Shown: positions 13,009 to 39,367 of the stretch, piece by piece
Layout: each line of letters starts with the position of its first letter
Numbering within the stretch: the first letter of the stretch is position 1
Assembly (NCBI RefSeq): GCF_002153655.1
Contig: NZ_JOPJ01000014.1
Location: forward strand, 1-64,000
Source of the DNA: Acetobacter okinawensis
GTDB taxonomy: Bacteria; Pseudomonadota; Alphaproteobacteria; Acetobacterales; Acetobacteraceae
DNA length: 64,000 nt
Reading direction: 5' to 3'
Notes under the pieces: model-generated
Told to the model about the DNA's origin: nothing
The model's database searches: none
Seen by the model: the letters and a program-made list of their open reading frames with translations, nothing else
Position numbers and translations under genes: made by a program

Positions 13009-13009
13009 G

Positions 13010-15770: not shown

Positions 15771-15792
15771 GCAGTAGGCAGAAAGGAATGTC

Positions 15793-17334: not shown

Positions 17335-17346
17335 GCAGCCTTTAAT

Positions 17347-18839: not shown

Positions 18840-18857
18840 AGCGGGCGGGGTATGGGC

Positions 18858-24298: not shown

Positions 24299-25336
24299 TT
24301 ATTCGTGCAGGACGTTGAGCGTATAATGCCGGGCAAGGGCTGCTGAATCCTCCCCATCGGCCAGCATGCCCACAAGTTGGAGTTCATCGCAGTACTGGGC
24401 AATCTGCTCACGCAGGCCGTGCCCCAGCAGGGGGCGGATAACTGGCTCGTTACGCAACATGTTGCGTGCGCTCGCAGCAGGCAGGTCTGCTGCATTATCG
24501 GCTATCAGGGTGGCGGCATCATCGCGGTGGGTGTTGACCCACAGGGCCGCATCGCGCAGGGCCAGCACCAGAGCGGTGGCTGCGGTGGGGTCTGCCTCGT
24601 GCGCTGTGTCAGCAACACCCAGAATAAGGCTGGTGCGCGCGGCATAATGCCCCGTATCGCTCCCCACCAGTTCGTACAAAAGGTCGGGGTTGTTCTGCAG
24701 CAGGGTCCATGCATCGGGGTCGTGGGTTACAACGGCGTCTATTTTCTGGTCATGGAGGGCCTGCTCAATCTGCTGGATGGGCAGGTCAATCCAGTTGATG
24801 TGGTTGAGCGCGTCCATGCCTTTACGGCGCATCATGATACAGAAGAACAGCTTGTCGGCGGCATTCTGGTCGGGGACGGCAACATTGCGGCCCATGAGCT
24901 GGTCCAGCCGGGTAATGCCGCTGCTACGCCGGACCAGTAGGCGGCGGCTGCCCGACTGCACACCCATGACCAGATGTGCGGGCAGGCCAGCATGCAGGCG
25001 TTGCAGCCATGTCAGGGCCGGAGCCAGAGCATAGGCGGTTTTTTGCCGGGTTAGCGCCTCCAGCGCATCCTGCCCGTTATGGATGTCGGGCAGGGGGTCC
25101 ACGTCCAGATTGTACTGGGCAAAAAAACTCTTCTCCAGCGCCGCTGCGAGCACGGGGGACATGGCGGCTTCCGGCCATGCGATTTTGAGTTTGCGGTACA
25201 CACCATCGGGCTGTTTGCGGGGCGCGCGGGGGCGGGAGTGGTACGCAAGCACGGCCACACCACCCACGGCGGCGCAACCTCCGGCCCCCCACAACAGGGT
25301 ACGGCGGGAGATGGGAGAGGGGGCAGGTGCGCTCAT
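24299..25336 (-). CDS. ABC-type substrate-binding protein, NMT1/SsuA-like
   Basis: A 345-residue exported protein. The N-terminus has SRRTLLWG followed by a hydrophobic Gly/Ala stretch, similar to a twin-arginine signal. The body is a two-lobe periplasmic binding fold of the nitrate/sulfonate/thiamine-precursor type (KIAWPEAAMSPVLAAALEKSFFAQYNL at the start; ALHDQKIDAVVTHDPD in the hinge region). Its permease and ATPase are not adjacent, so it is an orphan and must work with a distant transporter. The ligand is unknown. The Lrp-type regulator gene lies just upstream on the same strand. Confidence 0.75.
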   Translation of the reverse strand: MSAPAPSPISRRTLLWGAGGCAAVGGVAVLAYHSRPRAPRKQPDGVYRKLKIAWPEAAMSPVLAAALEKSFFAQYNLDVDPLPDIHNGQDALEALTRQKTAYALAPALTWLQRLHAGLPAHLVMGVQSGSRRLLVRRSSGITRLDQLMGRNVAVPDQNAADKLFFCIMMRRKGMDALNHINWIDLPIQQIEQALHDQKIDAVVTHDPDAWTLLQNNPDLLYELVGSDTGHYAARTSLILGVADTAHEADPTAATALVLALRDAALWVNTHRDDAATLIADNAADLPAASARNMLRNEPVIRPLLGHGLREQIAQYCDELQLVGMLADGEDSAALARHYTLNVLHE

Positions 25337-25411
25337 GCCTCTTACTTACACTGTGTTGGCCGGGGTGTCCCTGTTATGTGGGGAGAAAATGAAAAAATCC
25401 CAACCACCGGA

Positions 25412-25876
25412 TCAGGGTGCAAAAGGGGGACGTTCCGTGTGGCCCGTGTCCTGCCTGATGCGCGTGGACAGGATGATGGATGATTGTGTGCGCTGCACGC
25501 CATCCAATGCGCCAATGTTGTCTATGATCGTGTTGAGCATTTCCATATTAGGGGCGGCGATCATGGCGATCATGTCCATTTTTCCGCTTACGGCATAAAG
25601 TTCGAGCACGCCGCGTTGCTGCCTGAGCTGGTTTTCCACCCCAGCGTATGCGTGTGGGCTGGCCGCGATCATGACATGCGCACGGATGGAGAGGTCGGCA
25701 TCGGGGGCGAGTGTTACGGTGTAGCCCTGAATAATACCCCTGCGCTCCAGCCGTTCAATACGGCTTTGCACAGTGGTACGGGACAGGCCCAGTTTTTTGG
25801 ACAGGGCAACAGTGCTCATGCGTGCGTTGGCGCTTAAAAGTGCCAAAAGGGCACTGTCTGTTTCATCCAGTTTCAT
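25412..25876 (-). CDS. Lrp/AsnC-family transcriptional regulator
   Basis: A 154-residue regulator with an N-terminal helix-turn-helix (LDETDSALLALLSANARMS, then LSKKLGLSRTTVQSRIERLE) and a C-terminal RAM/AsnC effector domain (about 65-145) that usually senses amino acids. The ATG at 25876 is chosen because the protein then begins with the family-typical MKLDETD; an ATG at 25891 is possible. It diverges from the aminotransferase that heads the catabolic island, across a gap carrying four evenly spaced CGGCA half-sites. It is the likely regulator of that island. Confidence 0.92.
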   Translation of the reverse strand: MKLDETDSALLALLSANARMSTVALSKKLGLSRTTVQSRIERLERRGIIQGYTVTLAPDADLSIRAHVMIAASPHAYAGVENQLRQQRGVLELYAVSGKMDMIAMIAAPNMEMLNTIIDNIGALDGVQRTQSSIILSTRIRQDTGHTERPPFAP

Positions 25877-25878
25877 AA

Positions 25879-25947
25879 TGCCGACCAACATTGCAATCTG
25901 CCGAAATTAAAGTGCCTTGAGCGGCATTCTGTCAATTGATTCCGGCA
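25879..25947. promoter_or_regulatory. Symmetric array of four CGGCA half-sites
   Basis: TGCCG occurs at 25879-25883 and 25899-25903, and its inverse CGGCA at 25922-25926 and 25943-25947. The spacings are 20, 23 and 21 bases, so the array is symmetric around about 25913 and the sites lie on one helix face. The two right-hand sites extend to CGGCATTC. Lrp/AsnC proteins wrap DNA as octamers around such phased sites, so this is a likely operator for the adjacent regulator. Confidence 0.55.
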
Positions 25948-26319
25948 TTCAATTCATTTCTAATAAATAACAAAATACCATTTTACGTGTGTGCATGAAT
26001 GTTTGTAGTATTTTTACATATATACAAAAATATTTTCTTGGTTTTTTAGGTATTTCTGTGTCGTGCAGATGCGTTGTTCAGGCGTGTTTGGCCGTTTTCG
26101 CCTTGCCGTTGTTGCTCATGGCAGGGATGGGCATGTGATAAAAATTCATGAAAGCAGAGAGGATTTGCGCCATTTTTATGCACGCGGTGCTGTTTTTTAC
26201 ATTTCGGTCAAAGAATGGAATAGTTTCATCTCCAAATTTACAAAAATGACTAAAGACGGAAGCCTCTTGTTGTATGTTAACGTTTCGGAACGAAATCCGG
26301 GAGCAAGGGTGTTTAAGAC
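25948..26319. other. AT-rich spacer between the Lrp-type gene and the catabolic island
   Basis: About 370 bases markedly richer in A/T than the surrounding genes, with repeated T- and A-runs (for example around 25990-26050) suggestive of curved DNA. A loose -35/-10 pair (TTTACG then TAGTAT, 18-base gap) can be drawn near 25982-26011 for rightward transcription. Short open frames on both strands here have no ribosome binding sites or recognisable content. I see no gene. Confidence 0.5.
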
Positions 26320-27549
26320 ATGATGCAATGGTCTGAGTTCTCACGTTCAGAAAAACTCGATGGAATTAATGTTTCGGAAATCATTCGCATTGGTATCGAG
26401 GCGAATAAACTGGTTGCCAGCGGGCAGGACATTATTTTCCTCAATGCCGGGGAACCAGACTTTCCAACGCCCGATAATGTAAAAATGGCTGGTATAAAGG
26501 CCATTATTGATAACCAGACGCGCTACACGGCACTCGATGGTATTCCTGCGTTAAAAGAAGCCATACGGCAGAAATTCCTGCGCGAAAATAATCTGGACTA
26601 CAAAGTATCTGAAATAAGCGTTGGGCCGGGTGCCAAGCAGTTGCTGTTCAATGTGTTCATGGCAACGCTGAACCATGGAGATGAGGTTGTCGTGCCCATG
26701 CCATGCTGGACCAGCTATTTTGATATTATACGCATTGCCGGTGGTGTGCCGGTAGCCGTGCAGTGCAGTGATGACGAGGGGTTCCGCATGACGGCGGAGC
26801 AGCTGCGTGCCGCCATAACCCCTAAAACCCGCTGGTTGCTCCTGAACTCCCCCTCCAACCCCACGGGCACGGTGTACGGCAAGGAACATCTGGAAGCGTT
26901 GGGGGATGTTCTGCGACAGAACCCGCATGTCGGTATCGTGTCTGACGATATTTATGAACATATTACGTATGGTGGCACACCTTTTGTCAGCATGGCGCAT
27001 GCCTGCCCGGACCTGAAGCCGCGCGTGGTTACGGTCAATGGTGTTTCCAAGGCATATTCCATGACCGGCTGGCGCATTGGCTATGCCGGGGCCTCGGCCG
27101 AGATTGTGGCCGCCATGGCGGTTGTGCAAAGCCAGAGCTCCTCCAACCCCTGCTCAATCAGCCAGGTGGCGGCGGTGGAGGCACTCAACGGCACACAGGA
27201 CAATATTGCCGTAAGGCGGGATGTGTTCCAGCGCAGGCGTGACCTGAGTGTAGCCGCGCTGAATGATATTCCGGGTATCTCCTGCCGTGCACCAGAAGGG
27301 GCATTTTATGCCTTTGCCGATATTCGTGAGCTGGTTGCCCACCCGGAGGTTATTAAAAAACAGGTCCGGAATGACAAGGAACTTTGCCATTACTTCCTGC
27401 ACGAGTGTGGGGTGGCGGTTGTGCCGGGCTCCTGCTTTGGGGGGGAGGGGTTCATCCGGCTCTCCTATGCAACATCGGACAAAGCCCTGAGCGCTGCATT
27501 TGAGCGCATGAAAAACGGCGTACTGCGCCTTCTGGGTCATCAGGAATAG
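26320..27549 (+). CDS. Class I/II aminotransferase heading the catabolic island
   Basis: A 409-residue fold type I PLP enzyme related to, but clearly distinct from, the tandem pair at 20.8-23.2 kb. Motifs are NAGEPDF (42-48), NSPSNPTG near 176-183, the cofactor Asp in SDDIY, Schiff-base Lys244 in NGVSKAYSMTGWR and a C-terminal Arg in FIRLSYAT. The first 20 residues (SEFSRSEKLDGINVSE) differ from the housekeeping copies. It is the first gene of the run that includes a racemase-family protein ten bases downstream, so it probably handles the same amino acid substrate. Confidence 0.9.
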   Translation: MMQWSEFSRSEKLDGINVSEIIRIGIEANKLVASGQDIIFLNAGEPDFPTPDNVKMAGIKAIIDNQTRYTALDGIPALKEAIRQKFLRENNLDYKVSEISVGPGAKQLLFNVFMATLNHGDEVVVPMPCWTSYFDIIRIAGGVPVAVQCSDDEGFRMTAEQLRAAITPKTRWLLLNSPSNPTGTVYGKEHLEALGDVLRQNPHVGIVSDDIYEHITYGGTPFVSMAHACPDLKPRVVTVNGVSKAYSMTGWRIGYAGASAEIVAAMAVVQSQSSSNPCSISQVAAVEALNGTQDNIAVRRDVFQRRRDLSVAALNDIPGISCRAPEGAFYAFADIRELVAHPEVIKKQVRNDKELCHYFLHECGVAVVPGSCFGGEGFIRLSYATSDKALSAAFERMKNGVLRLLGHQE

Positions 27550-27559
27550 GATAAAAGTC

Positions 27560-28294
27560 ATGTATGGTACTGCAAAAGGCGGATATTCCCTGTACGGTGT
27601 GCCCTTGGGTGTGCTGATGCTTGAAGCCAAATTCCCCCGTATTGAAGGGGATATGGGCAATGCAACAACATGGCCGTTCCCGGTCCAGCTCTGTATTGTG
27701 GATGGGGTAACCCCCGAACATATTGTTATGGGTAACCCGCTGGATTATCTGGACCAGTTCATCCGCGAAGGCCAGCGGCTGATCCGGCTTGGGGTTTCCG
27801 CCATTACCACCAACTGTGGTTTTCTGGCCCTGTTGCAGCCCCAGTTGGCGGCAGCGCTCAAGGTGCCTGTTCTGGCCTCCTCCCTTGTTCAGATCCCGCT
27901 TGTGCAGACAACCCTGCCACCGGGCAAGCGCGTGGGTATTGTTACCGTGTGCGCCAGCAGCCTTACGGCGGCACATTTGAGCGCCGTTGGCGCACCAGTC
28001 GATACGCCCATTGCCGGAACCGAGAATGGTGAAGAGTTTTTCCGTATTCTTATCCGTGCGGAAAGTGATTCAATGGACGTGGACAAGGCCGAGCAGGACG
28101 TGGTGAATGCCGCGCTGCAACTGGTCAAGGACAACCCCGATGTGGGCGCCATTGTGCTTGAATGCACCAATATGCCCCCCTACGCCGCAGCCGTGGCGCA
28201 GGCAACCGGGCTGCCTGTTTACGATATTTACACGGCAGTAAGCTGGTTTATGTCGGGCCTGCGGCCACGCCGCTTTCTGGCACAGCACGGCTGA
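27560..28294 (+). CDS. Asp/Glu racemase-superfamily protein
   Basis: A 244-residue protein of the aspartate/glutamate/hydantoin racemase fold. The two catalytic Cys expected on opposite faces of the substrate are present: Cys86 in TTNCGF and Cys202 in LECTNMPP. The superfamily also includes maleate isomerases and arylmalonate decarboxylases, so racemisation is likely but not certain. It lies ten bases after the aminotransferase and 23 before the SDR-like gene. With a downstream D-amino-acid dehydrogenase, a role in converting an L-amino acid to its D-form, or the reverse, is plausible. Confidence 0.78.
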   Translation: MYGTAKGGYSLYGVPLGVLMLEAKFPRIEGDMGNATTWPFPVQLCIVDGVTPEHIVMGNPLDYLDQFIREGQRLIRLGVSAITTNCGFLALLQPQLAAALKVPVLASSLVQIPLVQTTLPPGKRVGIVTVCASSLTAAHLSAVGAPVDTPIAGTENGEEFFRILIRAESDSMDVDKAEQDVVNAALQLVKDNPDVGAIVLECTNMPPYAAAVAQATGLPVYDIYTAVSWFMSGLRPRRFLAQHG

Positions 28295-28317
28295 TCAAAA
28301 GTCTGGGGGAGACCACA

Positions 28318-29097
28318 ATGGAACTGGGACTTTCTGGCCGTCACGCACTGGTCTGTGGTGCAAGCCGTGGCATGGGGCGCGCCATTGCGCTGCTTTTGGC
28401 AAAGGAAGATGTTGACCTGACCCTCGTGGCGCGTGACGCGACCAAGCTGGAGGAAACGGTCCACCTGATCGGCAACAGGCCGGGGCGGACGGTAAACTGT
28501 GTTGCGGCGGACATTACATCCGAACAAGGTAGGCAACATATTTTTGAAGCCTGCCCTGAGCCTGACATCCTCATCAACAACGGCGCAGGCATGCCGCCGG
28601 GCGATTTTCGCGAATGGAGGCGGGAGGACTGGATCAGGGGGATCGATACCATGATGCTCGCCCCCATAGAGATGATCCGTCTGGCCATAGATGGCATGAT
28701 TGCCCGCAGGTTTGGCCGCATTGTCAATCTGGCATCCCGGAGTGTGAAAAGCCCGCAGGCGGAAATGGGGCTTTCCAATGCATCGCGCTCGGGGCTGGTT
28801 GCGTTCTCGTCCGGGCTGTCGCGGCAGGTGATTGCGCATAATGTGACAATCAACAATGTCCTGCCCGGTATCATCGATTCCGAGGCCCAGTACGCGCATG
28901 TGCAGGATTTGGCAAAGCGCACAGGCCGTAGTTATGCAGATATCTGGAACGAGCGGGCTGCCCGCACGCCTGCGGCACGGTATGGCCTGCCTGTTGAGGT
29001 AGCAACGGCTGTTGGTTTTTTCTGTTCACAGGCAAGTGGCTTTGTCACCGGGCAGAGCCTGCTGGTGGATGGTGGGGACTACAGCGGAATTTTTTAG
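28318..29097 (+). CDS. SDR-family protein lacking the catalytic Tyr/Lys
   Basis: A 259-residue Rossmann protein with the cofactor motif GASRGMG (14-20), Asp-containing AADIT, and the NNGAG strand (87-91). The catalytic-loop Ser140 is present in NLAS. The positions that should be Tyr and Lys (YxxxK, 13 and 17 residues after that Ser) are Ser153 and Arg157 in GLSNASRSG. This pattern occurs in an SDR subgroup of uncertain chemistry, so ordinary ketoreductase action is doubtful. The start is ATG 28318 after GGGGGAGA. It ends the first sub-block of the island; 164 bases follow. Confidence 0.85.
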   Translation: MELGLSGRHALVCGASRGMGRAIALLLAKEDVDLTLVARDATKLEETVHLIGNRPGRTVNCVAADITSEQGRQHIFEACPEPDILINNGAGMPPGDFREWRREDWIRGIDTMMLAPIEMIRLAIDGMIARRFGRIVNLASRSVKSPQAEMGLSNASRSGLVAFSSGLSRQVIAHNVTINNVLPGIIDSEAQYAHVQDLAKRTGRSYADIWNERAARTPAARYGLPVEVATAVGFFCSQASGFVTGQSLLVDGGDYSGIF

Positions 29098-29113
29098 GGG
29101 CTAAAACCGGCGG

Positions 29114-29172
29114 TATTCCAAAAAGTAATGGCCAAGAGATTTTTTTTCGTGTTTCATTACGAAAACGGAATA
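29114..29172. promoter_or_regulatory. Nested inverted repeat upstream of the 2-hydroxyacid dehydrogenase
   Basis: TATTCC-N5-GTAATG is mirrored by CATTAC-N6-GGAATA across 24 bases, both arm pairs centred at about 29143. A -10-like TAGAAT overlaps the right end (29171-29176). It could be a two-site operator or an RNA stem-loop and marks a probable internal regulatory point of the island. Confidence 0.5.
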
Positions 29173-29261
29173 GAATAACCCGCCCGTGTATGCTCCTATG
29201 AGACGAATTGAGATGGAACCACAGGGTTCATCATTCTATCAAATAGTAAGGGAAGTAAGTC

Positions 29262-30233
29262 ATGACAAAACCCTGGCGCGGAGACAAACCCCAGATTTGT
29301 GTAGCCCATGCACATTATGACCTGAAAGGCGAGCTGGCCCGGCGGGGGTCCCCCTACCCCTGCACGCAGGTGACCTCGCTTGATGCTCTGGAAAAAGTTG
29401 CGCACGATGCGGAAGTGCTGGTTGTTTCCATGCTTTGGAAAGATCGCATTCTGGATTGGACTCCCAACCTCAAACTGGTGCAGTCCGTCAGTGCGGGTGT
29501 GGACCACTATGGGCAGGACCTGTTCCGTGAGCGGGGCATTCATCTGTGCAGTGCACAGGGTGTGAACGCCAATGCGGTTTCGGACCATGCCATGGGCCTG
29601 CTCCTTAACCTGTCCCGCCGGTTGTATGAGGCGCGTGACGACCAGAAAAAATCCTACTGGCGGCCGACAAGCACCAAGGCGGACGAACGCCTGCATGAGC
29701 TGAGCAGCAAGACCGTCCTGATCGTGGGTTTTGGTGGCATTGGTGCGCGTGTTGCATCCCTATGCCGTGCATTTGGCATGAATGTTATTGCGATGCGTCG
29801 TTCCGTTCCCGAAACATCACCCGAAGGTGTGCGGATTATTGGCCAGAAGGATTTTCTGTCCACCCTGCCGCTGGCTGATGTGGTGATCCTGACCTGCCCG
29901 CTGACGCCAGAAACATTCGGGCTTATGGGTGTGGATGCGTTTGCGGCCATGCGCCCCGATGCAGTTCTGATTAACGTGGCGCGCGGTAAGGTGGTGGATG
30001 AGGCCGCCATGATTGATGTGTTGCAGTCTGGCAAGCTTGCAGCCGCAGCACTGGATACATTTGTGGAAGAGCCACTCCCCGCATCCTCCCCGCTGTGGGG
30101 GATGGAAAACGTGGTGGTCACGCCGCATGCGGCTGGTGAAACGCAGTTTTACGAGCGCAATGTTGTGGACATTCTGCTGCACAACATTCAGGCCATGGAA
30201 ACAGGTGGCGCTTTGAAAAACCAGATAGTCTAA
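29262..30233 (+). CDS. D-isomer-specific 2-hydroxyacid dehydrogenase
   Basis: A 323-residue NAD(P)H-dependent enzyme that interconverts 2-oxoacids and D-2-hydroxyacids. The nucleotide-binding loop is GFGGIG (156-161), and the catalytic triad is visible as Arg241 in NVARG, Glu270 in VEEPLP and His289 in TPHAAG. The loop after the second strand has Arg-Arg (MRRS, 178-181), which favours NADPH. In this setting it could reduce the 2-oxoacid made by the aminotransferase or by the DadA-like enzyme. It starts after GGGAAG and is separated from the ABC transporter genes by a GC-rich hairpin. Confidence 0.9.
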   Translation: MTKPWRGDKPQICVAHAHYDLKGELARRGSPYPCTQVTSLDALEKVAHDAEVLVVSMLWKDRILDWTPNLKLVQSVSAGVDHYGQDLFRERGIHLCSAQGVNANAVSDHAMGLLLNLSRRLYEARDDQKKSYWRPTSTKADERLHELSSKTVLIVGFGGIGARVASLCRAFGMNVIAMRRSVPETSPEGVRIIGQKDFLSTLPLADVVILTCPLTPETFGLMGVDAFAAMRPDAVLINVARGKVVDEAAMIDVLQSGKLAAAALDTFVEEPLPASSPLWGMENVVVTPHAAGETQFYERNVVDILLHNIQAMETGGALKNQIV

Positions 30234-30263
30234 AACCGGATATACGAACCGGATTGTTCTCTG

Positions 30264-30297
30264 GCCGGGGTGTCAAGGCTGTATCCGACACCCCGGC
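30264..30297 (+). other. GC-rich intercistronic hairpin
   Basis: GCCGGGGTGTC and GACACCCCGGC form a perfect 11-bp stem with a 12-base loop, 31 bases after the dehydrogenase and 34 before the binding-protein start. No T-run follows. Such stems often protect mRNA ends next to highly expressed binding-protein genes. Confidence 0.65.
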
Positions 30298-30330
30298 AAA
30301 TATGATCTAGTTGCTGAAAGAGAGGTTGCC

Positions 30331-31182
30331 GTGACAACTCGTCGAGCCTTTGCATCTGTTTTTTCGATGGCGGGAGTGGCGGCTGTTGCTGCTGCTGTTC
30401 CAGGTTTGAACACGACACAAGCAGCAGCAGCGGAAGGCGGCACGCTGGAGCGTATCAGAGCTTCGGGCAAGCTGCGCACAGCGGCTGTTCCGGGGGCTGA
30501 GCCTTTCTTTCATAAGGATATTATGACCGGAGGCTGGAGTGGCGCCTGCCTGGAGATGGCCGCAAACATGGCCGAAACCCTACAGGTCAAGCTTGAGGTC
30601 ATAGAGGCGGAGTGGGGTGCTTCCGTCATGGATTTGCAGACAGGCAAAATCGACATCATGTTTGCCCTCAGCCCCACACCCGCGCGCGCTTTGCAGATTG
30701 CCTTTAGCGACATTGCAATTAACAACTCCTTTACTGCGATCGTCAAAAAAGGACTGGTTGCCAAAACATGGGACGATATCAATAAGCCTGAAGTGCGCGT
30801 GGCGTTTGATACCGGCTCTTCCCACGATATTTTCGTGCGCAGGCGTCTGCCGCACTGCACGCCCGTTGCGGTTCAGTCCCCAACAGATGCCATTATGGCC
30901 CTGCAAACAGGCCGGGCAGACTGCGTGGTGCAGGTGGTGGTGATTGCATCGGTCATGCATGCACGGAACCCGAATATTGGGGACCTTGTTATGCCCACCC
31001 CCATTGCGCACCAGCCTACGTGCATTGGGGTGCCTGCAACAGCGGATTCACGTTTCCTGACATTTGTAAACAACTGGCTGCTTTACTCACGCTCCGAAAG
31101 CATTGTGCAGGAGTGGATGTACAAAGCATTGCAGGAAAACCATGTGGATATTGCCAGCCTGCCCGCAGGTCTCGAGTTTTAA
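30331..31182 (+). CDS. Amino-acid ABC transporter, periplasmic binding protein
   Basis: A 283-residue exported protein of the polar amino-acid binding (SBP family 3) type. A signal sequence (RRAF then an Ala/Val core, cleavage near TQAAAA, about 31-36) precedes GTLERIRASGKLRTA, the usual first strand. ASVMDLQTGKIDIMFA and SPTDAIMALQTGRADCV are the family's two hinge-region segments. The start is a GTG at 30331 after AGAGAGG. It is followed by its permease (14 bases) and ATPase. The ligand is unknown but likely amino-acid-like. Confidence 0.88.
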   Translation: MTTRRAFASVFSMAGVAAVAAAVPGLNTTQAAAAEGGTLERIRASGKLRTAAVPGAEPFFHKDIMTGGWSGACLEMAANMAETLQVKLEVIEAEWGASVMDLQTGKIDIMFALSPTPARALQIAFSDIAINNSFTAIVKKGLVAKTWDDINKPEVRVAFDTGSSHDIFVRRRLPHCTPVAVQSPTDAIMALQTGRADCVVQVVVIASVMHARNPNIGDLVMPTPIAHQPTCIGVPATADSRFLTFVNNWLLYSRSESIVQEWMYKALQENHVDIASLPAGLEF

Positions 31183-31196
31183 AAAGGGGCATATCC

Positions 31197-31856
31197 ATGA
31201 ACTATCATTGGGATTTTGGGGACGTTCTGCACTACTGGCCCCTGTTTGAAACCGGTCTGGGTTATACGCTGGGGTTTACGCTTATCAGCGCCCTTATTGG
31301 CATGGTCACAGGGGCTTTGCTGACGCTGTTGCGCCGGAGCGGGTGGAAAATACTGTCCGTGCCTGCTGTGGCATTTGTTGAGGTCTTCCGGTGTACCCCA
31401 GCACTTGTCCAGCTTGTCTGGTGCTACTACGCGTTGCCTGTGGTGCTGGGTATTACGCTCTCCCCCATGATGGCGGCCCTGCTTGCCCTGTCGTGTTATG
31501 GCGCGGCATTTTACAGCGAAATTTTTCGGGCCGGGCTGGATACAGTGGAGATAGGGCAGTGGGATGCAGCCTATGCGCTGGGTATGCGCCCGTTTACCGC
31601 CCTACGCCGTGTTATTGGCCCACAGGCCTTTAAAATCATGATTGCACCACTGGTCAGCCAGTTTGTGCTCCAGCTTAAAAATACCTCGCTTGTTTCCGTC
31701 GTGACGGTGCCAGACCTGGTCTATCAGGGGCAGATGGTGGCATCCGCCACGTATAAGCCTTTGGAAGTCTATACAACAATTGCCATCATCTATTTTGCGA
31801 TCCTGTTCCCGATCACGCAGGTGGCCCGTATTCTGGAGCGCCGTTATCATGTCTAA
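31197..31856 (+). CDS. Amino-acid ABC transporter, permease
   Basis: A 219-residue inner-membrane permease of the His/Glu/Gln type with five hydrophobic segments and the EAA loop around AYALGMRPFTALRRVIGPQA (about 124-143), which docks to the ATPase. FRCTPALVQLVW is the typical conserved region after the second helix. Only one permease gene is present, so the channel is probably a homodimer. The ATG at 31197 follows AAAGGGGC, and the last eight bases overlap the ATPase gene. Confidence 0.92.
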   Translation: MNYHWDFGDVLHYWPLFETGLGYTLGFTLISALIGMVTGALLTLLRRSGWKILSVPAVAFVEVFRCTPALVQLVWCYYALPVVLGITLSPMMAALLALSCYGAAFYSEIFRAGLDTVEIGQWDAAYALGMRPFTALRRVIGPQAFKIMIAPLVSQFVLQLKNTSLVSVVTVPDLVYQGQMVASATYKPLEVYTTIAIIYFAILFPITQVARILERRYHV

Positions 31857-32619
31857 AGAAGTGATGATTGACGTTGTTAATCTGGAAAAATCATTTGGAA
31901 AACACAAGGTTCTGGAGGACATCTCCTTTTCTGTCCCCAAAGGGAAGGTCATTGCGTTGATCGGGCCGAGTGGTTCGGGCAAATCGACCCTGCTGCGCTG
32001 TATCAACCTGCTGGAAATGCCAGATGCCGGGGCCATTACAATCAATGGCAAAACAATGGACTTTGGCATTCTCTCGCTGCGTTACCGCACCACGGAACTG
32101 GCGGCGTTCCGGGCTGAGACAGGCATGGTGTTCCAGTCGTTCAATCTGTTCCCGAACATGACTGTTCTGGAAAATGTTATGGCTGGGCAGCGGTTTGTAA
32201 AAGGTATTTCCAAAGATCAGGCAGAACTTATAGCCCGCCCGCTTCTAGCACAGGTTGGTATGGAGGGCTTTGCCGCCAGCATGCCGCAGCGCCTCTCCGG
32301 TGGGCAGAAGCAGCGCGTTGCCATTGCCCGTGCTTTGGCCATGAACCCCAAGGTCATGCTGTTTGATGAGGCGACATCCGCCCTTGATCCGCAACGTGTG
32401 GCCGAAATTCTGACGATTATGCGGGAGCTGGCGCAGGCTGGCATGACGCAGGTTGTTGTTACCCATGAGATGTCCTACGCGCGGGACGTGGCGGACATTG
32501 TCATGTTCATGGCCGATGGGCGTGTGGTTGAGTCAGGTCCGGCCCGGCAGGTCATAGAAGACCCGCAGGAAGAGCGTACCAAAGATTTTCTAAAACACTT
32601 TCACGCAGGGTGTTCGTGA
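31849..32619 (+). CDS. Amino-acid ABC transporter, ATP-binding protein
   Basis: A 256-residue ABC ATPase of the GlnQ/HisP type. Walker A GPSGSGKST at 39-47, Q-loop in FQSFNLFPNM, signature LSGGQKQRVAIARAL, Walker B MLFDEATSALDP and the switch His in VTHEMSYARD are all intact. An insertion of about ten residues (KTMDFGILSLRYRT) sits between Walker A and the Q-loop. The start overlaps the permease by eight bases, and the DadA-like gene begins one base after its stop, tying import to oxidation of the imported compound. Confidence 0.93.
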   Translation: MSKEVMIDVVNLEKSFGKHKVLEDISFSVPKGKVIALIGPSGSGKSTLLRCINLLEMPDAGAITINGKTMDFGILSLRYRTTELAAFRAETGMVFQSFNLFPNMTVLENVMAGQRFVKGISKDQAELIARPLLAQVGMEGFAASMPQRLSGGQKQRVAIARALAMNPKVMLFDEATSALDPQRVAEILTIMRELAQAGMTQVVVTHEMSYARDVADIVMFMADGRVVESGPARQVIEDPQEERTKDFLKHFHAGCS

Positions 32620-32620
32620 C

Positions 32621-33916
32621 ATGGATAAACCAAATACAGAGTGCGCCGCCACACATGTTGTTGTGGTCGGGGGAGGGATTGTTGGTGTTACAACCGCGCT
32701 TGAGCTGCGTTTGCGTGGGCATGAGGTAACACTGCTGTCCATGGACAAGCCCGGTTCGCAGGAAGCGGCAAGTTATGGCAACGCGGGCTGGCTGAACCCC
32801 GGCTCGGTTGTTCCGCTGTCCATGCCCGGGATGTGGAAAAAAATTCCCGGGTACCTGCTTGCCTCTAACGGGCCGCTCAAACTCCGTCCTTCTGCGTTGT
32901 TGCAGTCATGGCAGTGGCTTTTGGGGTTTGTGGCCTGTGGCGCTACGCAAAAGCGTGTCCGGCGTATAGCGCGTGCGCTGCGCCCGTTTTTGGCAGATTC
33001 CGCCGCACGGCACAGCGCGCTGGCCGAAGCCGCAGGTGTGCCAGAACTGATTGAGAAAAAGGGCCTGCTGGTCGTTTATCCCAATAAAGCTGCGTACGAG
33101 GCCGATGCACTGGCATGGAGCCTCAGGCGCGAGAACAATGTTGTCTGGAAAACAATGGAGCGCGCGGAACTGGTGGCGCTATGCCCTGAACTGGGCGAGC
33201 GTTACCAGTATGGGGCCTTTATTGTTGATGGCGCGCATTGTCGCAGCCCGGGGGGGTATGTGGCCGCGCTGGCTCAGTACGCAGAAAAAAAGGGCGTGCG
33301 CTATATTTCCGGCTGTGCGGAAAAATTCCTGATTGATGGCGGAAAAATCTCCGGTGTTGTCTATAATGGCAACAAGCTTGCATGTGACCATCTGGTTATT
33401 GCGGGGGGTATGGGCTCGGTGGAGCTTGCATCCCAGATCGGGGATAAGCTGCCATTGGTCAGCGAGCGGGGCTACCACGTGGAAGTGCCCGGTGCTGAAG
33501 GTGGGTTGCCAATCCCGGTTATGATGTCCGACCTCAAATTCGGGATTACTCCCATGACTGGCGGGTTGCGGGCAGCCGGGCAGGTGGAGTTTGCCCTCAA
33601 GGGCGCTGCACCGGACTGGCGGCGCGCGCGCATTTTGCTGGATTGCCTGCGTGAGGGCCTGCCACGCCTGAAAATTGGTGGTTTTTCCACAACCAACCAC
33701 TGGATGGGCAACCGCCCATCCACGCCAGACTGCCTGCCAGTTATTGGGCCGTCCTCCAAAGTTGGTGGGGTTTATTACGCCACCGGGCATGGGCACCTTG
33801 GGCTGGTAAGTGCGCCACTTACGGCTGAATTTATTGCGCGTCTGATCGCTGGGGATGCGGTGCCCGAGGTGGCTCCCTATACGGTGGAGCGTTTTTGTCG
33901 TGGCGGCAAAGAATAG
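32621..33916 (+). CDS. D-amino-acid dehydrogenase-like FAD oxidoreductase (DadA-like)
   Basis: A 431-residue DAO-family flavoprotein, close in size to DadA. The FAD-binding GGGIVGVTTALEL motif is at 17-29, SQEAASYGNAGWLNPG (about 45-60) is the DadA-like segment near the flavin, and a C-terminal ATGHGHLGLVSAP closes the FAD site. DadA enzymes oxidise D-amino acids to imino acids, which hydrolyse to 2-oxoacid and ammonia, and pass electrons to the respiratory chain. No membrane helix is seen, as in DadA. It is tightly packed between the ABC ATPase (one base) and the MFS gene (eight bases). Confidence 0.87.
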   Translation: MDKPNTECAATHVVVVGGGIVGVTTALELRLRGHEVTLLSMDKPGSQEAASYGNAGWLNPGSVVPLSMPGMWKKIPGYLLASNGPLKLRPSALLQSWQWLLGFVACGATQKRVRRIARALRPFLADSAARHSALAEAAGVPELIEKKGLLVVYPNKAAYEADALAWSLRRENNVVWKTMERAELVALCPELGERYQYGAFIVDGAHCRSPGGYVAALAQYAEKKGVRYISGCAEKFLIDGGKISGVVYNGNKLACDHLVIAGGMGSVELASQIGDKLPLVSERGYHVEVPGAEGGLPIPVMMSDLKFGITPMTGGLRAAGQVEFALKGAAPDWRRARILLDCLREGLPRLKIGGFSTTNHWMGNRPSTPDCLPVIGPSSKVGGVYYATGHGHLGLVSAPLTAEFIARLIAGDAVPEVAPYTVERFCRGGKE

Positions 33917-33924
33917 GCAGTTCC

Positions 33925-35286
33925 ATGACCACACAGTTGGCGGCCCCGGTTCAGTCGGTTCAAAAGGGTGCATTGAGCGCGATTTTTCTTGCAGTGTTTC
34001 TCGCTGTGCTGGATTACGCGGTCGCCAATATTGCGTTGCCGACAATTGGTCAGGACCTCCATACGTCTGCATCTGTTTCCATCTGGGTGGTCAATGCTTA
34101 CCAGTTGGTCAACTGCATGCTGCTGTTGCCGCTGGCTACTTTTGCTGAGCGGGTTGGGGCCAAGTCTGTCTGTATTGGCGGGCTGCTTGTTCTGGTTGTG
34201 GGTTCGGTCATCTGTAGTCTTGCAAACCAGTTGTGGGTTCTGGCTCTGGCCCGCGGCATACAGGGGGCGGGTGGGGCTGCCATTATGGCGGTCAACACAG
34301 CACTGGTGCGCATGGTGTGCCCCCCCGCCAGGCTGGGGCACAGTCTGGCGCTGAACGCGCTGATTACGTCTTTGGCGGTGGCGGTTGGTCCATCTGTTGC
34401 GGGGGGTATTCTTTACCTCACCGGTTCATGGCGCTGGCTGTTTTTGTTTAACCTGCCTGTGGGGCTTCTGGCGGCATTTGTCAGCTTTGTTTATCTGCCC
34501 CGTACTCCCGGGACTGAACGCAGGATTGATAAATCCTCTGTCATACTCAACATGTTAACATTCAGCCTGACGTTGGTTGGGTGTGACTTTCTGGCCCGTG
34601 GTGAATGGGTTTTTGGCGGCAGCCTTGTGCTGGGTTTGGGTATTGTCTGCGGTCTGCTCCTGTTTTTGCGCCAGAAAGGTCAGGCAGCCCCCCTGCTGCC
34701 GTTGGACCTGCTTGCCAGGCGGGACTTTTCCATTGGTATCACGGCCTGTTTTTTAGGCTACACGGCTGCAAATTTCTTTATGATTTCCATGCCATTTTCC
34801 TTAACGGAACTCTTTGGTCGCTCCCCAGTCATGACCGGCATGCTGCTGACGCCCTGGCCCGGTTCCATGGTTATGGTGGGGCCGTTGGTGGCTTATCTGG
34901 CCAACAAAATTCCAGCGCAGGTTCTCTCTGCCATAGGGCTTGTTATTGCAGGTTGTGGCTTTCTGCTGGTGCGCCTGACACCGTTTGATGCCAGTAATCT
35001 TGATATTATGTGGCGCTTTGCGGTGGCTGGGGTGGGGTTTGCTTTTTTTGTTTCGCCCAACAACCGCCTTACTCTTGTTGCCACTCCCCATGAGCGGAGC
35101 AGTAGTGCAAGTGGCATGATCTCCCTTGCCAGAATTATGGGGCAAACGTGTGGTGCAACCTGTGTCGCCCTGATTTTGGCGCATGTTATGCAGTTTCCGG
35201 TTCTGCTTTGTCTGGACTGCGCGGTTGCGGTTGCATGGGGGGGCGCACTGCTCTGCTCAAGCCGTATTCTCTACAGGAGGTTCTGA
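33925..35286 (+). CDS. MFS transporter, DHA2 (14-TMS) family
   Basis: A 453-residue inner-membrane antiporter related to EmrB/QacA/SmvA. Conserved elements are LDYAVANIALPTIGQDL (TMS1, about 28-44), the basic loop FAERVGAKSV, ARGIQGAGGAAIM in TMS4 and the antiporter-like GPSVAGGIL in TMS5. DHA2 proteins usually export drugs or metabolites. Within the island it may expel the hydroxyacid/oxoacid product or a toxic analogue. The ATG at 33925 follows the DadA-like stop by eight bases. Its TGA overlaps the ATG of the LysR gene. Confidence 0.88.
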   Translation: MTTQLAAPVQSVQKGALSAIFLAVFLAVLDYAVANIALPTIGQDLHTSASVSIWVVNAYQLVNCMLLLPLATFAERVGAKSVCIGGLLVLVVGSVICSLANQLWVLALARGIQGAGGAAIMAVNTALVRMVCPPARLGHSLALNALITSLAVAVGPSVAGGILYLTGSWRWLFLFNLPVGLLAAFVSFVYLPRTPGTERRIDKSSVILNMLTFSLTLVGCDFLARGEWVFGGSLVLGLGIVCGLLLFLRQKGQAAPLLPLDLLARRDFSIGITACFLGYTAANFFMISMPFSLTELFGRSPVMTGMLLTPWPGSMVMVGPLVAYLANKIPAQVLSAIGLVIAGCGFLLVRLTPFDASNLDIMWRFAVAGVGFAFFVSPNNRLTLVATPHERSSSASGMISLARIMGQTCGATCVALILAHVMQFPVLLCLDCAVAVAWGGALLCSSRILYRRF

Positions 35287-36248
35287 TGCTTATACCGCGT
35301 CGTCTGATTCCTTCCATTCCTGAACTTCTGGCGTTCGAGGCTGTGGCCCGGCACCAGAACTTCAGCGCCGCTGCGGAAGAACTCTGCCTGACGCAGGGGG
35401 CCATTAGCAAACAGATCCGGAATATGGAGCTTACACTCGGGGTTTCGCTTTTTGATCGCAGGCGTAAAAGACTGGTCATGACCCGGCAGGCCAAGTCCAT
35501 ACTGCCTTCTATTGTGTCCATTCTGGAGCAGATTGCAGGTGCGGCGTACCGCATTATTTCTTCCGGTAATGGCGAAAATACACTCAGCCTGCATATATTT
35601 TCCACGTTTTCTTCCCGCTGGCTTATTCCGCGCCTGCCACGGTTTATTGAAAAAAACCCGGATGTACGGATCAGCCTGACGACGGTTTTTCAACCTTTCA
35701 GTTTTGAAAATTCGGATTGTGACATTGCCATACACTACGGGGCGGCGGTTTGGCCTGATGGCCAGCTTTTCCATATTTTTGACGAAACAATAGTCCCTGT
35801 TTGCAGCCCCGCTTACCGTGAGCGCATGCAGCTTAAAGCGGCTAAGGATGTGGCGCGCGCCAACCTTATCCAGCTTACAACGCGCCCCGCCTTGTGGGAG
35901 TTCTGGTTTGCCGAGGTGGGGGTGGATGTGGAGTCTCCTTTCCATGGCAATGTGTTTGACCAGTTCAATGCAACAATAGAAGCGGCTGTTGCCGGGCTGG
36001 GGGTGGCACTTGTTCCCAGTATTTTTGTGGAGCGGGAACTGGCGGAAGGGGAGTTGTGTATTGTTACGGAAGAAAAAATCCGCTCGCGGGGGGCATACTA
36101 TGTGGTCACGCCAACAGAAAAGGCACACGACCCACTGATTACCCGCTTCATACGTTGGATCTGTGCGGAGAGCGCATCTTACAATGAGGCGGATATGGCC
36201 GAAGGTAACGCAGTCAAATTTAACGGATATGAAGGACTTGGAAATTGA
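35286..36248 (+). CDS. LysR-family transcriptional regulator (GcvA-like)
   Basis: A 320-residue regulator with an N-terminal winged helix (PELLAFEAVARHQNFSAAAEEL, then LTQGAISKQIRNME, about 11-50) and a C-terminal co-inducer domain (about 95-295) including the GAAVWPDGQLF and EAAVAGLGVALVPS segments of the GcvA/AmpR branch. It is co-oriented with and overlaps the MFS gene (TGATG), preceded by AGGAGG, which is unusual since LysR genes are mostly divergent from their targets. Its end overlaps the RidA-like gene. It may control the island together with the Lrp-type protein. Confidence 0.92.
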   Translation: MLIPRRLIPSIPELLAFEAVARHQNFSAAAEELCLTQGAISKQIRNMELTLGVSLFDRRRKRLVMTRQAKSILPSIVSILEQIAGAAYRIISSGNGENTLSLHIFSTFSSRWLIPRLPRFIEKNPDVRISLTTVFQPFSFENSDCDIAIHYGAAVWPDGQLFHIFDETIVPVCSPAYRERMQLKAAKDVARANLIQLTTRPALWEFWFAEVGVDVESPFHGNVFDQFNATIEAAVAGLGVALVPSIFVERELAEGELCIVTEEKIRSRGAYYVVTPTEKAHDPLITRFIRWICAESASYNEADMAEGNAVKFNGYEGLGN

Positions 36249-36598
36249 GTGATATAACCTACATTGATACAAACCACCGTCGTTCACGCGCTGTGGTGGC
36301 TGGGGGCACGGTCTATATTGCCGGGCATACGGGCCAAGACCGCACCAAGGATGCGGCAGGGCAGGCAAAAGATATTCTTGCTGCCATAGAAGCGTTGCTG
36401 GAGCAGGCAGGCAGCGGCAAGGACCGACTGCTGAACGTGACAATCATGCTTGCATGCATGGATGATTTTAATGCGGTGAATGAAGTGTATGATCAATGGA
36501 TTGTTGCAGGAAAAGCACCAGCGCGCTGCTGTAGCGAAGTAAAGCTGGCTTTTCCCGATATATTGGTTGAAGTGACGGCCATTGCGCAACTAAGATAG
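36245..36598 (+). CDS. RidA-family protein without the deaminase Arg
   Basis: A 117-residue protein of the YjgF/YER057c/UK114 (Rid) family, normally a trimer with ligand sites between subunits. RidA proper hydrolyses reactive enamines/imines using an Arg equivalent to Escherichia coli Arg105. In the aligned segment PARCCSEVKLAFPD that position is Leu101, so imine deaminase activity is not expected from the motif. The start is a TTG at 36245 inside the LysR stop region. Position after a DadA-like enzyme still suggests a link to imino-acid chemistry. A strong terminator follows. Confidence 0.88.
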   Translation: MSDITYIDTNHRRSRAVVAGGTVYIAGHTGQDRTKDAAGQAKDILAAIEALLEQAGSGKDRLLNVTIMLACMDDFNAVNEVYDQWIVAGKAPARCCSEVKLAFPDILVEVTAIAQLR

Positions 36599-36615
36599 CT
36601 GCCACGTTACCTGAG

Positions 36616-36648
36616 AAGCCCATAAGCACCCGCTTATGGGCTTTTTTT
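36616..36648 (+). terminator. Rho-independent terminator of the catabolic island
   Basis: AAGCCCATAAGC pairs perfectly with GCTTATGGGCTT (12 bp, loop ACCC) and is followed by a run of T. It lies 17 bases after the RidA-like stop. Confidence 0.95.
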
Positions 36649-36886
36649 GTAGCTAAATGCTCTGAAAAAGAATGGTTGGATGAATTTATTTTCGGATTTT
36701 TTCATGGAATGTCTCGGGCCGAACAAGATATAACGATATCGAAACGATGTGTACGAATAGAGCTTCCAACGGGCCGTTAGTGTCACTCAGCACCATTTAG
36801 CTATCTGATCGATGAGAGACCGTCGTCACTGTTGATCGCCAGACCGTATTCATCCTGTGCAAATTTGTCGGGAGGCAGGAAAACTT

Positions 36887-39367
36887 ATGGCCCAGCATTG
36901 GATCAGGACAGTACGGATTTTCTCTGCAACTACAATGCTCCTTGGCAGTAGTTCCGTAGTATCCGGCCGCATTGCAAACGCTGAGGAACTGCATAAGCAG
37001 ATGGGTGCGGCAAAAGAAAGCCGCGCAGCGACCAAGGCAGTAAAAAAGAAAACCTCACATGCCTCCTTGCAAGGTGGAGCGGAGGAGGTTTCGGTGCAGG
37101 CGGTGCACAGGGTCAACTCCGCACTGTCGGAAAGAACCCAGGTTCACAGCACCACGTCCGTGCAGGTTGTCTCGTCCGAGCAGCTCAAGCAGACCGGGCA
37201 GAGCAACGTCATGGCGGCCCTTGAGCAGCTTAGCCCCTCGCTCAGCTCGCCATCCTTTAGTGGGTTGGGCACCAACGGTTTTGTGCGGACCATGCAGCTG
37301 CGCAACCTCTCAGCGGATGAAACCCTTATTCTGGTAAACGGCAAGCGCCGCCACCTGAGTGCCAACTTTAACTCAAACGACGGACCAAACGCAGGCACGG
37401 AACCGTCCGATATTGCTCTTATCCCCATTAGCGCCATTGACCATGTGGAAGTCATTACCGATGGCGCCAGCGCACTGTACGGGCAGGAAGCCATTGCCGG
37501 TGCGGTTAACATTGTGCTCAAGCGCAATAGCCATGGTGGTGAATTCAATATTCAGAACATGGGTTATTACGCGGGAGATGGGCAGGGCGTGGATGGCTCG
37601 GCTGACTATGGTCTGGCGCTGGGCAAGCGCGGTGGGTTTATGAACCTTGCTGGCCAGATTACCCACACCCAGCCAACCAACCGTTCTGGTATTTACGAAA
37701 AAGCGGGAGACCCCCAGTCCGGTCAGGACCTGAACCGCATGATGGGGGCTGGCAGCCAGCTTGTTGCCACAATGTCCGCTAACGCAGAAATGCCGGTGAC
37801 GGATACGATCAAGGCTTATCTGCTGGCAACTTATGCGCACCGTAACAACGTAACGCCGCAGTCTGTCCGCACGGCTGCGAACGTGAACAATATTTTGCAA
37901 TACTACCCCAACGGTTTTCAGCCCCAGATGGGCTTGCAGGAAGATGACTTCCAGATCAACGGCGGCTTCCGTGGCACGGCGTTCAAGGACTGGATGTGGG
38001 ACACATACGTGACCTATGGGCGGGACGAGCAGGAATACTCCACGCTTGATTCGGTCAACGCAACATATGGGATGAACAGCCAGACAAAGTTTTATGATGG
38101 CACAAACATTTCCACCCAGTTTGTGGCGGGTGGCAAAATGTCCCATAACTTCAATGTCGGGTTCCTGCCCAAGCCGGTTAACCTGATGTTCGGCGGGGAA
38201 TACCGCCACGATACATTCCAGCTTATGGCGGGTGACCTCCAGTCCTGGTCAGATGGTGGGATGAAGGCTGGCGCCACGCCGGGTGCCTCTGGCCATCCCG
38301 GTGCGCAGCCTGCGGCTGCAAGCGATACATCGCGTGATATTTTCGATGGTTTTGTCAATACCGAGTTCTATGTCACCCCCAAGTGGGAGTGGACGCTGGG
38401 TGGCCATGCGGTCAATTACTCCGATATGGGTAAAACGGCAGCAACAGGCACAATTGGCACACGCTATAACTTTAACAAGCGTTGGGCGATCCGCGCTAAC
38501 GTGGGCACAGGCTACCGTGCGCCAACCCTTGGGCAGGAAAACTATTACATCATCACCACCTTCCCCGGGTATTCCACGGCACAGCTCCCCGCCAATGGCG
38601 AGGCCGCAAAGGCTCTGGGTGCTACAGGGCTTAAAGGGGAAACAACAAAGAACTACAGCATAGGGTTTGACGCCAAACCACTTGACCACTGGAATGTTAA
38701 CGCCAACCTGTACTGCATCCAGATCAATAACAGAATGGCCAACTCCACCCAGTTTACAGAATACAACGGATCACCCATTGCCAGTATTCTGAGCCAGTAC
38801 AATATGTCAAACGTGACCTATGCCCATTATTACGGCAACCCGGTCAATACCGTGACATATGGTGGGGACATTACAACGGACTATACGCTGGATGTGGGGC
38901 GTATGGGGCAGCTGAAGTTCAACCTTGGGATCAATTTCTCGGATACGGAAATTTCCAAGATGAAAGTCAGCACAACAATGTTTAACGCGTATGCGCAGAA
39001 CCTTCTGCTGCATTCCGCACCCAAAAACCGTGAGATGGTGGGTGTGCGCTGGAGCTGGAAAAAGCTGTCCATCTTTGTGCAAGAAGAGCGTTATGGTTCG
39101 GTGACCTACATTGCAACGCCCAGCTTGGGCGGGAATGACTGGCTGAACGTGAAGCCGGGTTACATCACGGACCTGGAAGTGGGGTATCAGGTTCTCGACC
39201 GTCTGCATCTGGCTGTCGGGGCGAACAACCTGTTCAACTACTACCCCAACCAGTTGCGGCGCTCTCTGTCTGTCTCGACCTCCAGCGGTGCATATAAATA
39301 CCCGACCAACTCACCTTACGGGTTTATGGGTGGCTACTACTACGTCAAGGCGTCCATGACCTTCTGA
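36887..39367 (+). CDS. TonB-dependent outer-membrane receptor
   Basis: An 826-residue outer-membrane transporter. A signal sequence (to about residue 34) is followed by a Lys/Ala-rich linker and a plug domain with TSVQVVSSEQLKQTGQSNVM, LILVNGKRRHL and the IDHVEVITDGASALYGQEA segment (about 80-210). The rest is a 22-strand barrel ending in the aromatic VKASMTF, a proper C-terminal Phe. The ATG at 36887 follows GGAGGCAGGA. It has its own promoter region (about 240 bases upstream) and terminator. No siderophore genes are nearby; adjacency suggests import of the compound used by the preceding island, but this is inference. Confidence 0.93.
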   Translation: MAQHWIRTVRIFSATTMLLGSSSVVSGRIANAEELHKQMGAAKESRAATKAVKKKTSHASLQGGAEEVSVQAVHRVNSALSERTQVHSTTSVQVVSSEQLKQTGQSNVMAALEQLSPSLSSPSFSGLGTNGFVRTMQLRNLSADETLILVNGKRRHLSANFNSNDGPNAGTEPSDIALIPISAIDHVEVITDGASALYGQEAIAGAVNIVLKRNSHGGEFNIQNMGYYAGDGQGVDGSADYGLALGKRGGFMNLAGQITHTQPTNRSGIYEKAGDPQSGQDLNRMMGAGSQLVATMSANAEMPVTDTIKAYLLATYAHRNNVTPQSVRTAANVNNILQYYPNGFQPQMGLQEDDFQINGGFRGTAFKDWMWDTYVTYGRDEQEYSTLDSVNATYGMNSQTKFYDGTNISTQFVAGGKMSHNFNVGFLPKPVNLMFGGEYRHDTFQLMAGDLQSWSDGGMKAGATPGASGHPGAQPAAASDTSRDIFDGFVNTEFYVTPKWEWTLGGHAVNYSDMGKTAATGTIGTRYNFNKRWAIRANVGTGYRAPTLGQENYYIITTFPGYSTAQLPANGEAAKALGATGLKGETTKNYSIGFDAKPLDHWNVNANLYCIQINNRMANSTQFTEYNGSPIASILSQYNMSNVTYAHYYGNPVNTVTYGGDITTDYTLDVGRMGQLKFNLGINFSDTEISKMKVSTTMFNAYAQNLLLHSAPKNREMVGVRWSWKKLSIFVQEERYGSVTYIATPSLGGNDWLNVKPGYITDLEVGYQVLDRLHLAVGANNLFNYYPNQLRRSLSVSTSSGAYKYPTNSPYGFMGGYYYVKASMTF

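Follow-up and report, generated by a model that had tools for sequence, protein, structure and literature searches.

D-Amino Acid Operons and a Related Gene Cluster in Acetobacter okinawensis

The dguRABC genes of Pseudomonas aeruginosa serve the utilization of D-glutamate and D-glutamine, and they encode a LysR regulator, a Rid protein, a flavin adenine dinucleotide (FAD)-dependent D-amino-acid enzyme, and a binding protein. The Pseudomonas dad operon (dadRAYX) comprises an AsnC-type regulator, the dehydrogenase DadA, the Rid protein DadY, and a racemase, the alanine racemase DadX (PMC9714295). DadA is reported to release imino-alanine, which is deaminated in vitro by DadY, and DadY to affect fitness during competition but not in monoculture (PMC9714295). 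Growth on D-glutamate is linked to dadA expression in another report (PMC6131576). Here we describe a gene cluster of Acetobacter okinawensis located within positions 1 to 64,000 of contig NZ_JOPJ01000014.1 (assembly GCF_002153655.1); this whole 64,000-nucleotide stretch is called the window below. The cluster and its close neighbors occupy an inserted segment, hereafter the island. We consider it fairly probable, from gene families and their arrangement, that the island represents a dad/dgu-type catabolic operon, devoted to the uptake, racemization, and FAD-dependent oxidation of an amino acid or a close derivative.

Eleven genes on the + strand lie between 26320 and 36598, with a divergent Lrp/AsnC-type regulator gene (25412..25891, - strand; PF01037/PF13404) adjoining them. 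Open reading frames (ORFs), domains, and strands all bear out the families that had been named in an initial sequence-only reading of this DNA. The first gene encodes a class I aminotransferase (AT; 26320..27549, PF00155) near aspartate aminotransferase B (best PDB match 6f35, 1e-134). It is followed by a member of the Asp/Glu-racemase superfamily (RAC; 27560..28294, PF01177) that belongs to subfamily NF005679 (PRK07475; 312.9 bits, cut-off 231), a short-chain dehydrogenase/reductase (SDR; 28318..29097, PF13561) of a subfamily without YxxxK, and a D-2-hydroxyacid dehydrogenase (HDH; 29262..30233, PF02826/PF00389; nearest PDB entry 5mh5). Next come the components of an amino-acid ATP-binding cassette (ABC) transporter. 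These are a family 3 solute-binding protein (SBP; 30331..31182, PF00497), whose nearest solved sequences are cyclohexadienyl-dehydratase-like (AncCDT-1, 5t0w, 9.6e-29), a permease (31197..31856; TIGR01726, 91.3 bits, cut-off 42.2), and an ATPase (31849..32619) whose best NCBIfam models, TcyN and GlnQ, both score below cut-off. The remaining genes encode a DadA-like FAD D-amino-acid dehydrogenase (32621..33916, PF01266), a DHA2-family exporter of the major facilitator superfamily (33925..35286; TIGR00711, 188.6 bits, below the cut-off of 230.2), a LysR-type regulator (35286..36248, PF00126/PF03466), and a Rid protein of the imine/enamine deaminase family (36245..36598, PF01042; nearest PDB entries PSPTO_0102 and PA5083).

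The tight packing originally described, with genes 0 to 25 bases apart or overlapping, holds for most junctions, which overlap or span at most 23 bp, but not for SDR-HDH (164 bp) and HDH-SBP (97 bp). A terminator-like stem-loop with a T run is present 3' of the Rid gene (36608..36652, + strand; -24.7 kcal/mol, z -8.0), and none of 200 shuffled sequences was equally stable. This stem-loop was not among the sites listed by a simple consensus scan, which proved uninformative (9 promoter-like sites versus 7.5 expected, 26 terminator-like sites versus 15.7 expected). A gene for a TonB-dependent receptor (36857..39367, + strand; PF00593/PF07715) lies downstream.

Like the dad operon, the island has an Lrp/AsnC regulator, an FAD D-amino-acid dehydrogenase, a Rid protein with its characteristic Arg, and a racemase. 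The latter is a cofactor-independent PF01177/NF005679 protein from a superfamily unrelated to that of the pyridoxal phosphate (PLP)-dependent alanine racemase DadX, and the DadA-like protein falls below the cut-off for DadA (NF001933, 185.6 versus 383 bits). Also unlike the dad operon, the island adds an ABC importer, a TonB receptor, an exporter, AT, HDH, SDR, and a LysR regulator. The resemblance to dguRABC, a likeness of gene roles, lies in the clustering of LysR, FAD D-amino-acid enzyme, Rid, and SBP; in contrast to dguRABC, the island includes a racemase, a full ABC transporter, AT, HDH, SDR, an exporter, and a receptor.

No description of this gene set was found in the literature searched, whose coverage largely excluded subscription journals. 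Within that literature, the early statement that no named pathway has exactly this set is literally right, but the core of Lrp, D-amino-acid dehydrogenase, Rid, and racemase follows the logic of the dad operon. The island appears to work like a dad operon built with different parts, plus two unexplained biochemical oddities, the SDR and the SBP.

Conservation of the Gene Cluster among Relatives

Homologous clusters were collected by a scan for the racemase, from which the best 80 of 568 confirmed loci were kept. Synteny was read by tblastn and with a codon-based gene caller, whose stop ends match those of all 18 complete annotated genes in a Chelatococcus locus (L090) and which missed a DadA gene (L180) that was found by another search. 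The order AT-RAC-SDR-HDH-SBP-permease-ATPase-DadA-DHA2-LysR is common to seven genomes of three genera: the window genome, a second genome of the same genus (G005), four genomes of g66 (Gluconacetobacter sacchari, G427, L007/L127; G. liquefaciens, G376, L008/L126; L124; L125), and one of g72 (L129). A Rid gene follows LysR in all of these copies except L124 and L127, in which none was called. The sequence-only reading had looked to conserved synteny of the racemase, SDR, and DadA genes as its check and to scattering in relatives as its refutation; the genes proved to share one order across these genera, and the set stays together in the relatives that hold it. Such conservation of gene order is more than chance.

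Other copies are rearranged or reduced. A rotated order occurs in Komagataeibacter xylinus (L011) and in a g84 genome (L128 with L199), with the receptor gene flanked by Rid and AT. The L128 copy has a saccharopine-dehydrogenase-like gene ahead of HDH, and a divergent gene beside the copy encodes a 44% homolog of the island Lrp; in L199, an enolase-superfamily gene follows SDR. Two reduced copies (L122 and L123) retain just SDR-SBP-permease-ATPase-DadA. A search for the receptor in the stretches of six g66 copies and the g72 copy found no close homolog, and only 30-31% homologs beside L124 and L125.

Beyond these copies, the SBP, racemase, and DadA families recur together, which supports the proposed link between uptake, racemization, and oxidation. 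SBP-RAC-permease-DadA is found in L130, L133, and L134, the same arrangement without DadA in L131, and DadA-SBP-permease-RAC in L139. A Bradyrhizobium locus (L036) reads HDH-Rid-AT-TPP-DadA-RAC, in which TPP denotes a thiamine pyrophosphate enzyme (PRK08199) next to DadA and RAC, and a divergent ABC operon adjoins. In three loci of a single genus (g134; L181, L182, L184), the ABC genes are separated from DadA by the gene of an enolase-superfamily protein (nearest PDB entry 3my9), with a TPP enzyme gene after these. The island shares SBP, permease, ATPase, the DadA-like enzyme, and LysR with this operon, and it differs in that the enolase-superfamily protein there replaces RAC and the TPP enzyme replaces AT and HDH. 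On balance, the overall pattern fits import, racemization, and oxidation, with the 2-oxo acid consumed by varying enzymes, and with the racemase as the more replaceable part of the pathway.

Two further arrangements were observed. In L188, L190, L192, and L193, RAC and DadA accompany xanthine-dehydrogenase-type subunits, a small SnoaL-like protein, and a Bug-type binding protein, as read by eye; this is perhaps a different RAC/DadA pathway. The Chelatococcus plasmid cluster (L090) has genes for SBP, permease, ATPase, a saccharopine-dehydrogenase-like protein, RAC, an FAD protein, a 2Fe-2S protein, a second FAD protein, an aldehyde dehydrogenase, and a DapA-family protein.

At the cut-offs used, RAC occurs in 151 of 397 genomes of the family, the DadA-like protein in 205, and SBP in 78. 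Proximity was counted from 150, 150, and 83 places copied by hand, the first two sets coming from listings that show some of the places in the search. Among these places, 55 of the 95 Acetobacteraceae genomes with both proteins listed have RAC and DadA no more than 10 kb apart, and a rough estimate from uniform placement would expect fewer than one, the genomes being related and not independent.

Purifying selection on the operon is strong. Between the window and G005, the ratio of nonsynonymous to synonymous substitution rates (dN/dS) ranges from 0.00 to 0.06 across the ten operon genes downstream of AT; RAC carries 0 nonsynonymous and 16 synonymous changes, and SDR 1 and 47. Constraint is weaker on Lrp (0.144) and on the receptor (0.044 over 1438 of 2511 bases). 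The value for AT (0.141) is probably inflated because the alignment covered more bases than the gene contains. The G005 copy (L137, about 6200-19900) has reading-frame breaks in several genes; sequencing error and decay are indistinguishable here because a flanking NMT1-like gene is split as well.

Borders and Flanks of the Island

Comparison with five relatives that lack the island (L142-L146) places its borders. Homology ends at 25397-25401 and restarts at 39476-39485, and the insertion site spans 66-332 bp in these relatives versus 14.1 kb in the window. Because of these aligned borders, at ~25401 and 39476, the 14.1-kb segment holds the Lrp gene, the eleven operon genes, and the TonB receptor gene. 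The unit first proposed, eleven genes plus Lrp, was therefore correct in its members but too small. The receptor is 75-76% identical to those within the rotated copies (L011, L128, L199) and, the G005 receptor excepted, at most 58% identical to the other same-genus receptors listed, which argues that it travels with the island. The G+C content is reduced to 52-58% across 26-40 kb of the window.

The segment lies between an NMT1-like gene (24299-25336) and a tRNA-Asn gene (39613-39688), beyond which is a gene read as panC from its sequence (40368-41342). Distances between flanking marker genes were tallied by eye from search coordinates in 41 same-genus genomes. The markers are <2 kb apart in 21 of these, 3.6 and 4.3 kb apart in G010 and G023, and 15.0 kb apart in the window genome (G000, a 2.72 Mb assembly) and G005. 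The other 16 are uninformative, as the markers fall on separate contigs (10), lie far from each other (3), or are represented by only one of the pair (3). These sequence comparisons indicate that the island is a conserved, laterally acquired accessory operon, presumably for an amino acid.

Integration targeted to the tRNA was considered and rejected, as the insertion ends upstream of the 5' end of tRNA-Asn. Two families of direct repeats were found, neither at the island borders, and the identified genes of the inserted segment include no integrase.

Elsewhere in the window, a second aminotransferase gene homologous to the island AT is located 3 kb upstream, outside the island (22034-23239), adjoining an EamA transporter gene. 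A region of low G+C content (43-47%) at 56001-60000 carries a 545-amino-acid ORF without a Pfam match and a family 2 glycosyltransferase gene, neither of which matched PADLOC. A 486-amino-acid ORF at 55569-57029 (- strand) lacks a Pfam match and is possibly not a gene, given a long overlapping ORF on the opposite strand.

Active Sites of the Encoded Proteins

Residue conservation was read from alignments whose rows are partly redundant (L007/L127 and L008/L126 are such pairs, L004-L006 overlap, and L001 is the window itself). Cysteines C86 and C202 of RAC are kept in 108 of 112 rows, and the other four are gapped at these positions. A model of the protein made with AlphaFold2 (pLDDT 88) was matched by Foldseek to arylmalonate decarboxylase, hydantoin racemase, and glutamate racemase at TM scores of about 0.5-0.6, the best E-value going to the decarboxylase (2vlb) and the next to the hydantoin racemase (2eq5). 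The protein thus combines the two catalytic cysteines and the superfamily fold of a two-base racemase. The model fits the Asp/Glu racemase superfamily fold and singles out no member, and a sequence search of the PDB at 1e-5 gave no match for RAC.

Several of the other enzymes preserve the residues with catalytic roles in their families. The Arg, Glu, and His triad of D-2-hydroxyacid dehydrogenases (R241, E270, and H289 in HDH) is kept in 10 of 11 rows, the remaining row being a G005 piece that ends before these positions. Likewise, the Lys of the S/A-K motif of AT is present in 10 of 11 rows, one row being truncated. The Arg of the PAR motif of Rid, which we take to be the essential deaminase residue, is kept in all 8 rows.

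In comparison, the SDR lacks the classical YxxxK motif. Ser and Arg (S153 and R157) occupy the Tyr and Lys sites in 12 of 12 rows from 10 genomes and in all 30 loci opened (the window and L212-L240). Of 319 genomes of the phylum, 63 have a match to the subfamily, and the motif was checked in those 30 loci. The PDB relatives of the SDR, 5va8, 5vps, and 5idx, are listed simply as SDRs; the protein also matches the bacilysin-like protein YwfH (3u49, 114 bits), and a literature search on this link found nothing. In seven longer stretches around SDR genes outside the operon, no island-type DadA, RAC, or SBP was called. One SDR stretch (L241) contains a DapA-family gene and, read by eye, an Lrp gene.

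The SBP is similarly atypical. In canonical amino-acid SBPs of the ArgT/GlnH type, an Arg binds the carboxylate and an Asp holds the amino group of the ligand. The island protein keeps the Arg (R119), but has V202 at the position where the aligned solved SBPs have Asp, and this column is V, A, or L in 29 of 29 rows. The structure model of this protein (pLDDT 58) was too poor for use. Read from their sequences, an SDR without Tyr/Lys and an SBP without Asp speak against the island being a simple replica of a pathway already known.

A Candidate Pathway and Competing Explanations

In the scheme that we favor, each reaction, its direction, and the substrate are predicted from protein families and conserved residues. 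The substrate would cross the outer membrane via the TonB receptor and the inner membrane via the SBP, permease, and ATPase. The two-cysteine, cofactor-independent RAC would interconvert its L and D forms, after which the DadA-like flavoenzyme would oxidize the D form to an imine and Rid would hydrolyze this to a 2-oxo acid. From there, AT could turn the 2-oxo acid into an L-amino acid, for a net stereo-inversion, or pass the nitrogen on, and HDH could interconvert the 2-oxo acid and a D-2-hydroxyacid. The DHA2 protein may export surplus product, and the two regulators, Lrp and LysR, probably respond to substrate or product. The outline sketched earlier stands insofar as the uptake, racemization, and oxidation genes form one conserved unit. 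Its final reduction to a D-2-hydroxyacid is less secure: HDH is assigned by family and motifs, its reaction could run in reverse, its gene is missing from L122 and L123, and in other lineages a TPP enzyme joins or replaces it.

The substrate is probably something other than alanine. The host genome has two other DadA loci above the NF001933 cut-off (639 and 669 bits, each match containing a single stop codon), and the island enzyme is a third, divergent one. An alanine racemase gene lies beside one of these canonical loci, and all four PF01168 matches are on other contigs. Alanine is an unlikely main substrate because the host already holds two canonical DadA loci and an alanine racemase gene.

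A number of observations weigh against the dad/dgu-type interpretation. RAC is not near DadA in 40 of the 95 genomes listing both, and the tie to the transporter is not universal, since, among the listed places, only 17 of 58 genomes have SBP near DadA and only 13 of 51 have RAC near SBP. Four loci (L122, L123, L186, L194) have SBP and DadA together and no RAC called in the stretch, two of them (L186 and L194) with the permease beside these genes, and RAC relatives occur in other gene contexts too. The island is accessory, with RAC present in 2 of 37 same-genus genomes (G000 and G005). The SDR has neither the canonical catalytic dyad nor an assigned step, and it is unusual for the simple use of an amino acid to involve a TonB receptor and an exporter. 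Finally, an SBP without the usual Asp for the amino group may have a ligand that is not a plain alpha-amino acid.

One alternative is a special case of the favored scheme, in which the island is a dguRABC counterpart for an acidic D-amino acid (D-Glu, D-Gln, or D-Asp) and RAC is a true aspartate/glutamate racemase. The presence of LysR, Rid, FAD enzyme, and SBP genes in one operon would agree with this, as would the nearest solved relatives of Rid (one of which, PA5083, is presumably DguB), the nearness of AT to aspartate aminotransferases, and the superfamily name of RAC. We nevertheless think it improbable, as that name leaves the substrate unfixed, the RAC fold is equally near hydantoin racemase and arylmalonate decarboxylase, and glutamate-type models are not among the strong matches to SBP. 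Those same fold matches raise the question of whether RAC is a racemase at all and not some other isomerase or a decarboxylase of the superfamily, a view consistent with the top rank of arylmalonate decarboxylase and the empty PDB sequence search. Arylmalonate decarboxylase keeps only one of the two racemase cysteines. The retention of both in RAC is the pattern of a racemase, and RAC is often beside DadA, so we judge this view quite improbable.

Alternatively, the imported compound could be a 2-hydroxy or N-substituted acid, either opine-like or a cyclic imino acid, that is opened by HDH, by an enzyme like the saccharopine-dehydrogenase-like protein of L128, or by the FAD enzyme, with AT then making the amino acid. 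The SBP residues suggest such a ligand, since the carboxylate Arg is kept and the Asp is gone in every row. The saccharopine-dehydrogenase-like gene that heads the L128 copy points the same way, as does its 37% homolog in the SBP-ABC-RAC cluster of Chelatococcus, which also has the DapA-family gene, the aldehyde dehydrogenase gene, and the two FAD proteins around a 2Fe-2S protein. Against this, D-amino acids could bind the SBP in another pose, and racemase and DadA stay recurrent partners, which together leave this explanation doubtful. We place similarly low odds on an undescribed route that would take an unusual amino acid (N-substituted, cyclic, or hydroxylated) from the outer membrane to the cytoplasm. 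In this route, the Tyr/Lys-less SDR would perform new SDR chemistry, coupled to a racemase that needs no PLP and to the DadA-like enzyme; the SDR part of this proposal draws on the presence of the Tyr/Lys-less subfamily across the phylum and on the near-absolute constraint in this island. It is far less probable that the island makes and recovers a small metallophore or signal derived from a D-amino or hydroxy acid. The combination of DHA2 exporter, TonB receptor, racemase, and ABC importer in one island is of the right kind, but no ligase, nonribosomal peptide synthetase, or opine dehydrogenase is among the identified island genes, and the g66 and g72 copies without a close receptor homolog in the searched stretches still keep ABC and DadA.

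Two further routes were considered. A cysteate/sulfolactate route was prompted by a weak match to CuyB (25.1 bits versus 190) and by a sulfopyruvate-decarboxylase-like protein, below cut-off, near a Bradyrhizobium copy (L042); it was dropped because the genes identified in the Acetobacteraceae copies include none of this kind. A hydroxyproline route was prompted by the Chelatococcus cluster, in which no hydroxyproline-specific model scored above cut-off.

Implications

If the dad/dgu-type interpretation is true, the island would extend D-amino-acid catabolism by one substrate class and by a second type of racemase. The SDR family without catalytic Tyr and Lys would likewise gain a genomic context that makes its chemistry testable. 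D-Amino acids occur in the fermented foods and insect guts that acetic acid bacteria inhabit, and the island would give some of these bacteria an acquired route to use them.

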